From contig JABUTN010000007.1 of assembly GCA_021443665.1 (NCBI GenBank), positions 1-42,359 of the forward strand: DNA of 42,359 nucleotides, given 5' to 3'. The translations under genes were made by a program, and so were the position numbers. Source of the DNA: Bacteroidales bacterium (GTDB lineage: Bacteria > Bacteroidota > Bacteroidia > Bacteroidales > UBA932). The notes beneath the pieces were generated by a model that worked only from the letters and a program-made list of their open reading frames with translations, made no database searches and was not told the DNA's origin. Of the stretch, positions 11,836 to 31,361 are shown piece after piece (within the stretch, counting starts at the first letter, position 1; each line of letters begins with the position of its first letter).

Positions 11836-16658
<4,823 letters not shown>

Positions 16659-16669
16659 TTCCTCATCCT

Positions 16670-18199
16670 ATGAAAAAAACTTTTCTTGGAGTCCTTGCAA
16701 TGGCGCTTATTGTACTCGCCGCCTGCAGCAAGGAAAAACCCGGCGCCGGTGAATCCGAAAGGCAGGAGCCTACGGAAATAGTCACTCTGACCGCCTCCCT
16801 GCCCGACGAGGAGGCCACAAAGACAGCATACGAATACGATTCAGCAAGCAAGAAACTGAAGGTCACCTGGGCTGAAGGGGATCAGATTGCCCTCTATGCC
16901 ACAAACGGCTCAGGCACGGAAGCCGATGTGATTCTGGCTCTTTCCCAAGGTGCAGGCACCAAGACTGCCACCTTCACTGTCACCCGGGGAGAAATTGAGA
17001 GCAATCTCAACTATACTGCAGTATATCCTTACAACGCCGGCAAGGATGCCGCAGCCTGGAACAGTTTCATTGCCACAGCCCAGACCCAGGATATGACTGA
17101 AGGCAGGCAGACCGACCACATCGGGAATAATGCCGTTATGAGTGCCGACCTGGCTGCAGGAGAGACAACTATGGATTTCGGATACCGCTTTGCCGTTTTC
17201 AAGGTCAGCTATGACTTCGCAAATCAGAAAAACGGGAATCTTTTCATCTATGATGGAAATGCCCCCACCTCTGTAAGTGTAGCCGGCGCCTGGGGAGACC
17301 GGGCTTATACTGTCCTGCTCACGAATGTCCCGAAAATCGGGCAGGGCCGGCGAAAAATCACCGCCTTCATTGTCACCCCCCTTGCAGAAGAAGCGAGCAT
17401 AGGCCTTTCTGCGGGCTTCAATTTCCATACAGATTCCCTCGCCGCCTTCAAGTTTGCAAAAAAGAGCAGGAACATCGAGGCGAAACTCTACAATGCCGAT
17501 TTCAGCACCGGCGCCACTCAGATTGCCGGCGTTTCCGTCTCTGAGGGCAGCGCCCACTGCTGGGTACAGCTTTGGACAGACGGTCCCAAATGGGCAAGCA
17601 CCAACGTAGGAGCCACATCCCCGAGCGACACCGGTTACTATTTCCGTTGGGGTGAACAAATGGGATGGAGAGTGAAAGACAACAGCACGGCTCTCAGTAG
17701 CACCAACTGCATCCAATACGACAAGACCGGAATACAAACAGGGTCTGTCTGGAAAGATACTACTTTTACAGATAAAAGTTGGCCGCTTTATGGAAAAGAC
17801 ATTGCCGATTTTGGCGGAACAATAAACAATACATACGGCAATATCACTTATGGGGATGCCGCCACCTACAACTGGGGTGCAGGCTGGCGTATGCCCAATT
17901 CTTCAGAAGCCGGAAAATTGGAAAGCAGCTGTGATTGGAGAAGGGAAGGAGAAATAGCCGTATTTACGGGGCGTATCTCCCACTCCGTCTGCAGCATCAG
18001 AATCCGGAGCAACGGCTACTGCGAATCCACAAGCCGCAATGAAGCCGATAAGTGTTACTACTGGACCTCTTCTCCTTATTATGATGAGGAGAAGAAAAAT
18101 ATATATGCCAAATACCTTTGGATAACCAATGGGACACGTACTGTTTACTACGATGGACTGAAGTACGCAGGCCACGGCATACGCCCTGTCATGAAATAA
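16670..18199 (+). CDS. Paralogous lipoprotein with fimbrillin-like and Fib_succ_major-like domains
   Basis: 509 residues with lipobox VLAAC (Cys19). The domain order matches the previous gene. N-terminal signature: TASLPDEEATKTAYEYDS, LKVTWAEGDQIALYATN, AVYPYNAGK, GAWGDRAY. C-terminal signature: WVQLWTDGPKWASTNVGA, a FRWGEQ segment, YNWGAGWRMPNSSEAGKL, and a final GHGIRPVMK, the classic end of Fib_succ_major domains. The tandem pair clearly arose by duplication and then diverged. Its 3' end overlaps the 3' end of uvrC on the other strand by 11 bp, and no terminator is visible between them. Confidence 0.78.
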   Translation: MKKTFLGVLAMALIVLAACSKEKPGAGESERQEPTEIVTLTASLPDEEATKTAYEYDSASKKLKVTWAEGDQIALYATNGSGTEADVILALSQGAGTKTATFTVTRGEIESNLNYTAVYPYNAGKDAAAWNSFIATAQTQDMTEGRQTDHIGNNAVMSADLAAGETTMDFGYRFAVFKVSYDFANQKNGNLFIYDGNAPTSVSVAGAWGDRAYTVLLTNVPKIGQGRRKITAFIVTPLAEEASIGLSAGFNFHTDSLAAFKFAKKSRNIEAKLYNADFSTGATQIAGVSVSEGSAHCWVQLWTDGPKWASTNVGATSPSDTGYYFRWGEQMGWRVKDNSTALSSTNCIQYDKTGIQTGSVWKDTTFTDKSWPLYGKDIADFGGTINNTYGNITYGDAATYNWGAGWRMPNSSEAGKLESSCDWRREGEIAVFTGRISHSVCSIRIRSNGYCESTSRNEADKCYYWTSSPYYDEEKKNIYAKYLWITNGTRTVYYDGLKYAGHGIRPVMK

Positions 18200-27309: not shown

Positions 27310-27324
27310 GTGACATTTTGTCAC
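27310..27324. promoter_or_regulatory. Perfect short palindrome between the peptidase-barrel gene and groES
   Basis: GTGACATTTTGTCAC is a 6-bp inverted repeat with a 3-nt centre. It overlaps the stop codon of the upstream minus-strand gene and lies upstream of the groES promoter region. It could be an operator or just a 3'-end hairpin; no T-run follows on either strand. Confidence 0.35.
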
Positions 27325-30260
27325 GGCAAGGATATGCTGAAGACAAAATCCACCCAGTTCACCTTGTCAGTATGAGGCTGGAGACCGGTGCGGCTGTAGC
27401 GGATTCCGGCCGTAATGGGGATTACGTATCTGAACAGGTTGAAGTCTATGGAAAATTCAAATCCGTATGACAGCATATCCACAGTCTTGTACATATAGTT
27501 TCGGGCATAGTCCACAAAAGGTATCAGACGCGCTCTCTTCAAGTATAGGAAATAGGGAATCGCCACGTCTCCAAGCCAGATGGGTATGGCATAATCGGCC
27601 GAAACTTTGAAATACTGGAAGCCCGGCCTTTGCTGCGGAAGCATCACATAGCCTCTGGGCAGGGAGGCCGCTGAACTCAGGAAATAGGAATCAGACCATT
27701 CCCTCTGGTACTGGGCCCTGAGCAGCAAGCCCTGACGGCGCAGGATTCCGGGCAGATAGCCGTAAACCTGGGCGAACACCTGGCTTCCGAAGAGCCTTCC
27801 CGGGGCGTATGCCCCCCTTACTGCCATACCAAGACCCCAGCGCGGGAAAAGCTGCCCCTTTGCAACGGGACGCCCCATATAGTATTGCAGGGAAGCCACC
27901 ATTTCGTGGCGCTGTATGAACTCGCCGGCTACCGGATCGAAATAGCGGTCGTTGCTGAAATGGTAGCCGAAGGCCGGAGTGAGCGTTTTGCTTGTGCCTC
28001 CACGGTAAAAGGAGATGGGCCGCGAGAGCGTGAGCGTAAGGTCCGAATTCACCACACCCTTGGTGACTGACCCGTATGGGAGTTCCCTGCGGTCGTCGCT
28101 GAGCCTGAAATAATCATACGAACTTTTCGCATTCAGGTCGTAGGCGGCGTGCAGGTCCACGCCCAGGACATTCCAGTTGAGGTCGAAATGCCCCGCGTGA
28201 TAGCCTCCGGGGTGGCCCGATTCCCAACTCTTGTGCCAGGCATATCCTGCCATAAAGGAAACCGTTTCCATTGTGTTCTGCGAATACACGACCACGCCGG
28301 GAGCGGCTATGGACTCGATTGAGGAGAAGTTCCCGTTCATCACCTCCGCCACATTGAAATAAACCGGCGCCCAGGTGTGGATATTGAAGGCCCCGAGAAA
28401 CTTGCTGTACCTGCCGCTCCTGTACGAAGACACATCCACCGTGTCATTTTGCGACAATTCCGGCAGTTTTGAGGAAAATCTGCGCTGGCTGTCCAACATT
28501 TCCATCACGGGCCACTTGTAGGGCTTGTCAAAGTGTGCTGGCATCCAGCGAAGGGATTCCACCGCGGATTTTGCCACCCGGAAGCCCATTTTGTCATACT
28601 CGCAGTAATACAGCGTGCCGTTTTCGTCAAAAGAGGGGTCCGTCACCCCAAAGGCGGAGTTTGTCATAGAGAGCAGCACATTGGTTTCGGGATAGTAGCG
28701 GTAAATGTTCTCCACCCCGTCAAGGTCGCTCACGAAGTAAAGGCTCTCCTCGTCCGCGTCAAAGTTTTCTATGCTCTGGTGCTGCGGGGCCACCACCGGC
28801 TCCCATTTCGGGCCGGAGGCATCAAGTCTGTAGATGCCCAGACCTTCCGGATTCACGATTGTATTGTAAATTTCTCCCTTATAGTATGCCGTCTGGACTA
28901 TCTGCCAGCCCTTGGGGGCCTCAATGCGGGAAACCGGCTTGCCTTTTTTGCCGTCCAGGAATACCAGGAAAGTGTTGCCGTCAATGGAGTATTCGGCCAC
29001 GGCTATGGTGTCGGCCGTGGGGGAAAAGGTAGGATTGAAATAGCGCGTGTTCCCGCCGAAACTGCGGATGCGGCCCGTTTTCAAGTCCATTTTCCTGACA
29101 ATGGAACGGTCCCTCTGGATTTTCTGGTATCCGTCCAATTCAGACCACACAATCTGTCCGCTCTCCTGATGGTAGGACAGGCTGCTGGTGACAGAGCCGA
29201 AGAAATGCACGAATCTTTCCCTTGACAGGCTGTCTATGGCCACCATATCGTAAGCGTGCTGGATGCCCGATTTAATGGCCAATACCTTGCCGTGGTATTT
29301 CGAGTCCGGGTTGTTGATGTAAATGGGATTATGATATTCCGTATAGAGATTCTCCTTGCGGGACAAAACGGTGTCGGGCTTGAGCGGCTCCCCTCTTTCC
29401 TCAAGGTCCTTCTTCCAGACCTCTGTCCACATCTGATTGGCGTAGTCAAGCATTCTCGACCTTGAAGGGGTGCCTGTCAGTTCCTTTTTCTTTCCTATGG
29501 TCACGGGACAATACACCTGGGTTCCAGACCATTTGAAGGTCTTGCCCGTATGAAAATAGTCCATCGACATTTTGCGGTTGGCTGACATCATGAAATAGCC
29601 GAATTCGTATGCGTTGGGGGCCTTGCGGTAGAAGGACCCCTGACGCATCCTCTCCCAAATGGGATATTCCCCCGTCAGAAACAGGGAGCGGGTATAGCGC
29701 ATCAGCGCGGCGCTGCGGCCGCGTCCTCCAAGCGTGAGTTCGCTTTCGGCAAACACGGCATCCCCCTCCATAATGAAATCCGCCCCGAAAATTCCCATAA
29801 TGAGTCCGGGTGCGGCCTGTCCGATGATATATGATGCGACCCCGGGAAATCCCTTGGTGAAATGCTCGCACTGTCCCACGTGGCGGCTCTCGTGTATGGC
29901 CAGATCCCAGGCCCAGGGCACTGAATTGGAGCCGTAAGCGTCCGGAGTGGGATAAAGCACCATCCTTTTGGGAGCCCACACCACCATACCGTTGCTGACG
30001 GTTTCGTAGGGCTGGAGTATGACATCTATCCTTTTGGGGTCTATCTTCAAGGCTTCCATCACCCAGGGACGCACTGTCTCAAGATTGCGCAGATATACCC
30101 TCGCCAAAGAATCTGTCTCTGTGGGATAAATGAGGTTATAGTGGTCTGTCTTTATGTGGCTCCATTTCTTCAGGCTTGGAGACGTGCCAGCCGAATAAAA
30201 CTGCGCCGAAATTCCGAGAGCCGGCAGTAAGCAGATGAATATCAACGCAATTCTTCTCAT
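27321..30260 (-). CDS. Outer-membrane protein: HExxH peptidase-like domain, propeller-like middle, C-terminal beta-barrel
   Basis: 979 residues with a signal peptide (~1-19, LGISAQ). The N-terminal ~250 residues look like a gluzincin/peptidase-MA-like domain: AIHESRHVGQ supplies HExxH (His123, Glu124, His127), and MEGDAVFAES 38 residues later offers the third zinc ligand (Glu165). The middle (~330-600) has repeated YW-motif blades typical of TolB/PD40 propellers, such as NPTFSPTADTIAVAEYS, LYFVSDLDGVENIYRY and DPSFDENGTLYYCEYD. The last ~330 residues alternate polar and aromatic residues and end in VDFVFSISLP, as expected for a Bam-inserted outer-membrane barrel. I infer an outer-membrane-anchored metallopeptidase with the catalytic part in the periplasm or at the surface. 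Substrate unknown. It is monocistronic, with a promoter 16 nt upstream. Confidence 0.8.
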   Translation of the reverse strand: MRRIALIFICLLPALGISAQFYSAGTSPSLKKWSHIKTDHYNLIYPTETDSLARVYLRNLETVRPWVMEALKIDPKRIDVILQPYETVSNGMVVWAPKRMVLYPTPDAYGSNSVPWAWDLAIHESRHVGQCEHFTKGFPGVASYIIGQAAPGLIMGIFGADFIMEGDAVFAESELTLGGRGRSAALMRYTRSLFLTGEYPIWERMRQGSFYRKAPNAYEFGYFMMSANRKMSMDYFHTGKTFKWSGTQVYCPVTIGKKKELTGTPSRSRMLDYANQMWTEVWKKDLEERGEPLKPDTVLSRKENLYTEYHNPIYINNPDSKYHGKVLAIKSGIQHAYDMVAIDSLSRERFVHFFGSVTSSLSYHQESGQIVWSELDGYQKIQRDRSIVRKMDLKTGRIRSFGGNTRYFNPTFSPTADTIAVAEYSIDGNTFLVFLDGKKGKPVSRIEAPKGWQIVQTAYYKGEIYNTIVNPEGLGIYRLDASGPKWEPVVAPQHQSIENFDADEESLYFVSDLDGVENIYRYYPETNVLLSMTNSAFGVTDPSFDENGTLYYCEYDKMGFRVAKSAVESLRWMPAHFDKPYKWPVMEMLDSQRRFSSKLPELSQNDTVDVSSYRSGRYSKFLGAFNIHTWAPVYFNVAEVMNGNFSSIESIAAPGVVVYSQNTMETVSFMAGYAWHKSWESGHPGGYHAGHFDLNWNVLGVDLHAAYDLNAKSSYDYFRLSDDRRELPYGSVTKGVVNSDLTLTLSRPISFYRGGTSKTLTPAFGYHFSNDRYFDPVAGEFIQRHEMVASLQYYMGRPVAKGQLFPRWGLGMAVRGAYAPGRLFGSQVFAQVYGYLPGILRRQGLLLRAQYQREWSDSYFLSSAASLPRGYVMLPQQRPGFQYFKVSADYAIPIWLGDVAIPYFLYLKRARLIPFVDYARNYMYKTVDMLSYGFEFSIDFNLFRYVIPITAGIRYSRTGLQPHTDKVNWVDFVFSISLP

Positions 30261-30276: not shown

Positions 30277-30284
30277 CAAAGATA
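30277..30284 (-). promoter_or_regulatory. -7 promoter box for the peptidase-barrel gene
   Basis: Minus strand reads TATCTTTG, ending 16 nt before the ATG at 30260. It stands back-to-back with the tRNA-Gln box, with only 12 bp between them. Confidence 0.7.
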
Positions 30285-30314: not shown

Positions 30315-30385
30315 TGACCAATGGTGTAATGGCAGCACTAGAGATTTTGGTTCTCTCAGTCCAGGTTCGAATCCTGGTTGGTCAA
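30315..30385 (+). tRNA. glnX-TTG: tRNA-Gln (anticodon TTG)
   Basis: The acceptor arms TGACCAA and TTGGTCA pair fully, with A as discriminator. The anticodon stem AGAGA/TCTCT encloses loop TTTTGGT, giving TTG (reads CAA, and CAG by wobble). The T arm CCAGG-TTCGAAT-CCTGG is clean. The encoded 3' end continues CAAA, so CCA is added enzymatically. The next gene's ATG is at 30390. The gene symbol is a placeholder. Confidence 0.95.
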
Positions 30386-30389
30386 CAAA

Positions 30390-31361
30390 ATGGAAAGGCA
30401 TATCGAAAAAGCGGTAATTTGCACTCTGCTCTGCGGGTGCATTTTTAGTTTTATCAGTTGTGGATCCCGCAGCAGACAGACAAAATCTGCAGCGCAGGAT
30501 TTCCCTTTCATCAAGGTACCTGCGATGATGACGGAGCCGGGGCAGATTGCCGAGTATATGGCCGGAAGATTTTGGGCCCCATACTGCGACTCAGCGGCCG
30601 TATGGACCAGGGACACCCTCTATGTGGGCGGTATCTGGAGGGATGATTTTGTGGCGGCCTACCGGCAGTGGGCGACTTTGCTCTGGATGCTGAACCCTCT
30701 GATTGCCCAAAAATCCGTGGAACAGAATCTCAGGTATTTTCAGGCACTGCACGACTCTATTCCCGATACCGGAGCCTATCCCCTGTTCCTTGATTTGTGT
30801 GAAGAATACTTCTACGGTGTCAATTCCACTTTCCGCAACGAGCAGCTGTATCTTCCCGTGGTGAGGCTGAGAGTGAAGGAAATGCGCAAGGATTCCGTCC
30901 TGCACGACAAGTACGCCAAACAGCTCGAGTGCTGCTCCCTCAACCAGATCGGAACCGTGGCTTCTGATTTCGATTTCACGGACAAAAGGGGCAGGAGAGG
31001 CAGTCTGCACAAAATCCGGGCTCCTTACACCCTTCTGTTCTTCTCCAATCCCGGTTGCAATGCCTGCAAACAGATTATAGACAAACTGAACGCCAGCCAG
31101 AAAGTGGCCGAGCTGACCGGCAAGGGCCGGCTTGCCGTGCTCAATGTGTATATAGACGAGAATCCGGATGAATGGTACAAATATATGCCCATTTACCCGG
31201 ATTCGTGGACCAACGCCTATGACGAGGACCTGGAAATCAGAACCAACACTCTCTACGATGTGCGTGCCATTCCCTCCCTCTATCTTCTGGATGCCGACAA
31301 GAAGGTCATTTTCAAGGACCTTCCGGACAACAGACTCATAGATCTGCTGGAAATGCTCTGA
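30390..31361 (+). CDS. Thioredoxin-like lipoprotein (DUF5106-like N-terminus)
   Basis: 323 residues from the ATG at 30390; the ORF track's TTG lies in the tRNA acceptor stem and is excluded. Lipobox FISC (Cys24) predicts a lipoprotein. The N-terminal part (~45-185, with FWAPYCDSAAVW and LDLCEEYFYGVNS) resembles the DUF5106 region found in Bacteroidetes redox lipoproteins. The C-terminal part (~190-323) is a thioredoxin fold: ASDFDFTDKRGRRGSL, then LLFFSNPGCNACKQI with the CxxC pair Cys223-Cys226, and AIPSLYLLDADKKVI with the cis-proline. I infer a periplasmic thiol-disulfide reductase or redox sensor. Its stop codon directly abuts the gcvH stop on the other strand. Confidence 0.85.
   Translation: MERHIEKAVICTLLCGCIFSFISCGSRSRQTKSAAQDFPFIKVPAMMTEPGQIAEYMAGRFWAPYCDSAAVWTRDTLYVGGIWRDDFVAAYRQWATLLWMLNPLIAQKSVEQNLRYFQALHDSIPDTGAYPLFLDLCEEYFYGVNSTFRNEQLYLPVVRLRVKEMRKDSVLHDKYAKQLECCSLNQIGTVASDFDFTDKRGRRGSLHKIRAPYTLLFFSNPGCNACKQIIDKLNASQKVAELTGKGRLAVLNVYIDENPDEWYKYMPIYPDSWTNAYDEDLEIRTNTLYDVRAIPSLYLLDADKKVIFKDLPDNRLIDLLEML

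Follow-up and report, generated by a model that had tools for sequence, protein, structure and literature searches.

The window, that is, the whole stretch of 42,359 nucleotides that was analysed, carries on its minus strand an open reading frame at 27321..30260 (read from 30260 to 27321) that encodes a protein of 979 amino acids. The original prediction, whose gene call carried no strand, read this protein as a peptidase-like domain, a propeller and a beta-barrel joined in one chain, and homology, AlphaFold2 modelling and Foldseek comparison show that reading to be right. The features of the gene, with the evidence for each in brackets, are as follows.

27321..30260, minus strand: whole gene, an outer-membrane protein with peptidase, propeller and Omp85-like barrel (ORF call, homologue search, AlphaFold2 model)
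30277..30284, minus strand: -7 promoter box of the Bacteroidetes type, TATCTTTG, some 16 nt ahead of the ATG (sequence against consensus)
30204..30260, minus strand: type I signal peptide, residues 1-19, the mature protein starting at Q20 (sequence, Q20 conservation, Q-rule)
29361..30200, minus strand: N-terminal gluzincin-like domain, residues 21-300 (model; DUF2268 in 23 of 65 members; 17 invariant columns)
29880..29894, minus strand: HESRH, residues 123-127, two candidate zinc ligands and the putative catalytic Glu124, on helix 116-135 (alignment, model)
29766..29768, minus strand: Glu165, invariant candidate third zinc ligand, on helix 161-175 (69 of 69 aligned rows, model)
28536..29342, minus strand: six-bladed TolB-like propeller, 24 strands between residues 307 and 575 (profile matches, model, Foldseek)
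27324..28463, minus strand: C-terminal segment with a 16-strand Omp85-like barrel, residues 600-979, strands 627-976 (C-terminal model, Foldseek, hhalign)
28365..28379, minus strand: HTWAP (HSWxP in the family), residues 628-632, near-invariant, on barrel strand 1 (alignment, model)
27648..27659, minus strand: PRGY, residues 868-871, loop joining barrel strands 11 and 12 (model, alignment counts)

The gene and its surroundings

The consensus of the Bacteroidetes -7 box is TAnnTTTG. With the box TATCTTTG at 30284-30277 and a tRNA-Gln gene running divergently (30315-30386, plus strand), the earlier claim of a solitary gene with its own promoter is plausible. The signal peptide, which had also been predicted, reads MRRIALIFICLLPALGISA, with the cleavage site between ALGISA and the following Q; since Q20 is kept in 97% of the homologues in a 69-row alignment, it fits the Bacteroidetes Q-rule (PMC10653852).

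The gene had further been placed just upstream of groES. This holds here, groES lying on the same strand with a gap of 84 nt, but the arrangement already varies within the genus: it is absent in the same-genus genome G589, and a functional link to groES/GroEL was therefore rejected. In some members of the family groESL lies within a few kb of the homologue. The thioredoxin-like gene that diverges from the 979-aa gene (window 30390-31361, plus strand) is a more frequent neighbour of the homologues than groES: it lies near them in several genomes of the family (L033, L251, L254, L260). Elsewhere in the window, at 11857-18199 on the plus strand, three consecutive large ORFs of secreted type encode 1156, 444 and 509 aa, two of them with lipoprotein-like starts. 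Across the order no conserved operon was found around the homologues, whose neighbours are clade-specific and give no conserved pointer to outer-membrane biogenesis.

Peptidase, propeller and barrel

An AlphaFold2 model built on 68 homologues (pLDDT 86.6, pTM 0.88) contains the helices bearing HESRH and E165, the propeller strands and, at the C-terminus, the barrel, so that the three-domain architecture is well supported. HESRH and Glu165, the latter within MEGDA, lie at the residues originally named. In the order-level alignment, whose overall identity is about 25-30%, H123, E124 and H127 are kept in 68 of 69 rows and E165 in every one; G166, A168, G179, G181 and G221 are invariant as well, and E172, R180 and Y218 nearly so. 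The lone exception to HExxH is a second, tandem copy in one genome (G008), which sits beside an intact copy. A phylum-wide search, other classes included, also returned HExxH in all 39 loci. The N-terminal domain is moreover the most conserved part of the protein, with 23 of 280 positions conserved at 95% or above, against 2 of 290 in the propeller and 11 of 370 in the barrel.

In gluzincins, strands are typically followed by the HExxH helix and then by the helix that carries the glutamate. The model has this order, with strands 78-82, 90-95 and 98-103, the active-site helix 116-135 and the Glu165 helix 161-175; HExxH on a helix and a downstream glutamate on a second helix are the marks of clan MA peptidases of the gluzincin type, and Glu165 remains a good candidate for the third ligand. 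Profile searches gave a mixed answer. The window protein alone has no match in Pfam, the peptidase_MA profiles suggested earlier included, but DUF2268 (PF10026, "predicted Zn-dependent protease") matches 23 of 65 members (best 1.7e-5), and Peptidase_MA_2 (PF13485) passes its cut-off in a distant relative, L180 (34.4 bits against 32.4). With these two families the protein thus shares the HExxH...E gluzincin motif and, through its homologues, weak to moderate profile matches, whereas GRGR, EGDA and Y218 are motifs of its own family. PF01435 (M48) matched nothing in the whole genome, and membership of the M48 or BepA family was rejected on this ground; the genome's lack of M48 is only weak evidence for the quality-control role proposed below, as a control Bacteroides likewise gave no M48 match. 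The N-terminal domain is probably an active gluzincin, which would bind zinc and cleave protein substrates.

Within the window's family the zinc motif is intact in every first copy examined, and only three second copies are degenerate. These zinc-less paralogues (L033:3911-6874, minus strand; L252 and L253, from genomes G603 and G602) have NMSRR, SGNFL and AKSRQ in place of HExxH, and each of their genomes also holds an intact copy; they are possible pseudoprotease partners.

The strands of the propeller form six blades of four by manual count, within the six to eight that had been predicted. The single protein has only a weak TolB-propeller match, at residues 499-571; a profile of the homologues finds TolB structures at E 5e-18, and TolB is also the first Foldseek hit for the whole model. 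It is not the TolB of the Tol-Pal system, an identity rejected because TIGR02800 scored 20 bits against a cut-off of 343. TolB, BamB (described in PMC13067283) and BamI are likewise propellers of the periplasm or of the outer-membrane assembly machinery, TolB being the closest by sequence and fold, but here the propeller is fused into one chain with the other domains.

Because the propeller dominated the Foldseek search of the whole model, the barrel was modelled separately (pLDDT 87.5). Sixteen strands were counted by hand, in agreement with the even number expected. Foldseek against the PDB returned BamA of Deinococcus radiodurans (3.0e-5), FhaC, TamA, BamA of Bacteroides thetaiotaomicron and CdiB, with E-values from 3e-5 to 7e-5 and moderate TM-scores of about 0.34-0.45 on query length. 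Strands 11 and 12 of Omp85 proteins are joined by a loop with the motif (V/I)RG(F/Y). PRGY lies in the corresponding long loop; its R is found in 57 of 68 rows, G in 63 of 68 and Y or F in 42 of 68, and its first position is P, not V or I. The near-invariant HSWxP stands on strand 1, which in Omp85 proteins forms the seam, and D917 is conserved too. Aligned by hhalign with Omp85 barrels of related genomes, the last strands gave E 6e-5 at 64% probability; a BamA-only Omp85 sub-profile gave no alignment. The Pfam Omp85 profile (PF01103, Bac_surface_Ag), which the original prediction had named as a check, failed to recognise the barrel, matching 1 of 66 members at E 0.04. With the strand number and the RG(Y) position of Omp85 proteins but not their profile, the barrel is best called Omp85-like, and homology to Omp85 is probable.

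This nature of the barrel, seen in its 16 strands, in RGY between strands 11 and 12 and in the matches to BamA, TamA and FhaC, had been missed by the original prediction, which took it for a generic anchor, and it shifts the likely role of the protein from anchoring to something tied to outer-membrane protein biogenesis. In the C-terminal model the long loops lie on the side of the barrel opposite the N-terminus, which by the usual rule for barrels would place the soluble domains in the periplasm; a periplasmic orientation of peptidase and propeller is, on this model, most likely.

Distribution and relation to described proteins

Of the 294 genomes surveyed in the order, 180 contain relatives, most of them full length at about 950-1000 aa, which excludes a chance ORF, and a profile of the N-terminal domain found relatives in 179 of the 294. 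The gene is present in 57 of 60 genomes of the window's own family; about 39% of the sampled genomes of the order do without it, and it is therefore no essential gene of the order as a whole. The phylum-wide profile search recovered full-length relatives from beyond the order and the class, so the gene is widespread in Bacteroidota. A pattern-based scan of contigs gathered 557 relatives, the best named carriers being mostly Marinilabiliaceae, Prolixibacteraceae and similar Bacteroidales, from many environments and no single niche; its patterns contained HExRH and WFLEGDA, for which reason it was excluded from the evidence on motif conservation, as was a further 90-row homologue table with the same bias. 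The single 979-aa protein as query found no match in a scan of genome contigs, nor did a phage search give one, and the PDB sequence search returned no direct match for the single protein, the N-terminal domain or the barrel.

Some relatives depart from the common form. In two homologues (L157 and L045) the ORF begins roughly 170-320 residues further upstream than usual, with HExxH at residue 450 in the former and a total of 1133 aa in the latter; the extensions are either a real extra domain or merely an upstream open frame. Three records titled Wenzhouxiangella, Alphaproteobacteria and Chlorobiota (L125, L135 and L086) hold Bacteroidales-like copies, 34-40% to a Natronoflexus protein, and their titles therefore probably misname the organism. 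The Salinibacter ruber plasmid pSR116 (L261, 2875-4776) encodes a protein with the annotation "basic secretory protein-like protein". It matches the distant relative L180 over the part that comprises peptidase and propeller and, being shorter at about 630 aa, is too small to include a barrel as well.

The closest described architecture is the "WD40-Omp85" subfamily named by Heinz and Lithgow in 2014 (PMC4104836), in which a TolB-like propeller replaces the POTRA domains and is followed by an Omp85-type barrel. A TolB-like propeller N-terminal to the barrel is present here by profile, model and Foldseek. In the excerpted text of that paper the subfamily has no known function and no peptidase is mentioned for it, whereas the 979-aa protein has a gluzincin-like domain; the subfamily was moreover gathered there by a search with barrel sequences, and the present barrel is barely detected by Pfam Omp85. 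This makes the architecture a new and fuller form of a kind described but uncharacterised in that text. The earlier statement that no functional description was known stands for the open-access literature searched, where none was found, but the union of propeller and Omp85 barrel had already been described.

Proposed role at the outer membrane

The reading we favour, tentatively, is that of a divergent Omp85-like outer-membrane protein in which propeller and gluzincin have taken the place of POTRA and which could well serve the processing or quality control of outer-membrane proteins in the periplasm. The propeller, being TolB/BamB-like, would offer substrates or partner lipoproteins a docking site close to the seam of the barrel. 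Outer-membrane proteins that are stalled, misfolded or immature would be cut by the peptidase, much as BepA works on BAM, but all within one chain. BepA, an M48 zinc peptidase of Escherichia coli whose target at the BAM complex is LptD (PMC8423444), serves here as a working analogy: it is a zinc peptidase of the periplasm engaged in the quality control of outer-membrane proteins, as is proposed for the 979-aa protein; however, BepA is a separate soluble M48 protein, whereas the 979-aa protein is non-M48 and fused to its own propeller and barrel.

Conservation is much higher in the zinc site and the N-terminal domain than in propeller and barrel, as one would expect if catalysis outweighs barrel function. 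The protein might then be a protease devoted to processing a single class of cargo, such as maturing lipoproteins or a secreted protein, with the barrel as its anchor only. This reading is possible but unlikely, since HSWxP, RG(Y) and D917 suggest that the barrel does more than anchor and no cargo gene is linked in the neighbourhood. A type-Vd-like translocator, which would export its own peptidase and propeller to the cell surface as a protease for nutrition or defence, seems improbable. Enzyme-bearing Omp85-like barrels do exist, and PMC4104836 describes the proposed export of PlpD, a patatin-Omp85 protein of type Vd whose enzyme domain is likewise N-terminal to an Omp85-type barrel. PlpD, however, is a patatin lipase, whereas here a metallopeptidase is followed by an intervening propeller; the two soluble domains, some 570 residues, are joined directly to strand 1, the modelled loop lengths would put the N-terminus in the periplasm, and the range of environments points to no single niche. 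A structural or assembly factor, in which the peptidase fold serves as scaffold and catalyses little or nothing, is highly improbable: although the second copies in three family genomes show that a zinc-less form can be retained, they coexist with an intact copy, and every first copy examined in the family, like all the phylum-search loci, retains HExxH.

To return to outer-membrane protein quality control, the window's genome encodes a separate BamA of 842 aa, and the 979-aa protein would therefore be an additional machine. Against the favoured reading, a published study of BAM in B. thetaiotaomicron and Porphyromonas gingivalis names no peptidase subunit, though those species may lack the gene. 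A component of type IX secretion was also considered and rejected, because SprA is absent from all five sampled genomes of the family, each of which has the gene. SprA is found in 276 of the 294 genomes of the order, and its absence in these five suggests a family-wide loss of type IX secretion.

A bolder and more doubtful extension is that these proteins form a phylum-wide, undescribed Omp85-like class, in which barrel, substrate-docking propeller and zinc protease would unite the jobs of BamA, BamB and BepA in one self-contained chain for assembly and quality control. If the protein is active, Bacteroidota would possess a widespread outer-membrane protease whose catalytic domain is physically tied to an Omp85-like barrel. 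It would offer a testable route to the clearance or maturation of barrel proteins in a phylum where published BAM structures show no BepA-like subunit, and the zinc-less paralogues, together with the single residues E124, H628 and R869, would make the protease and barrel roles easily separable.
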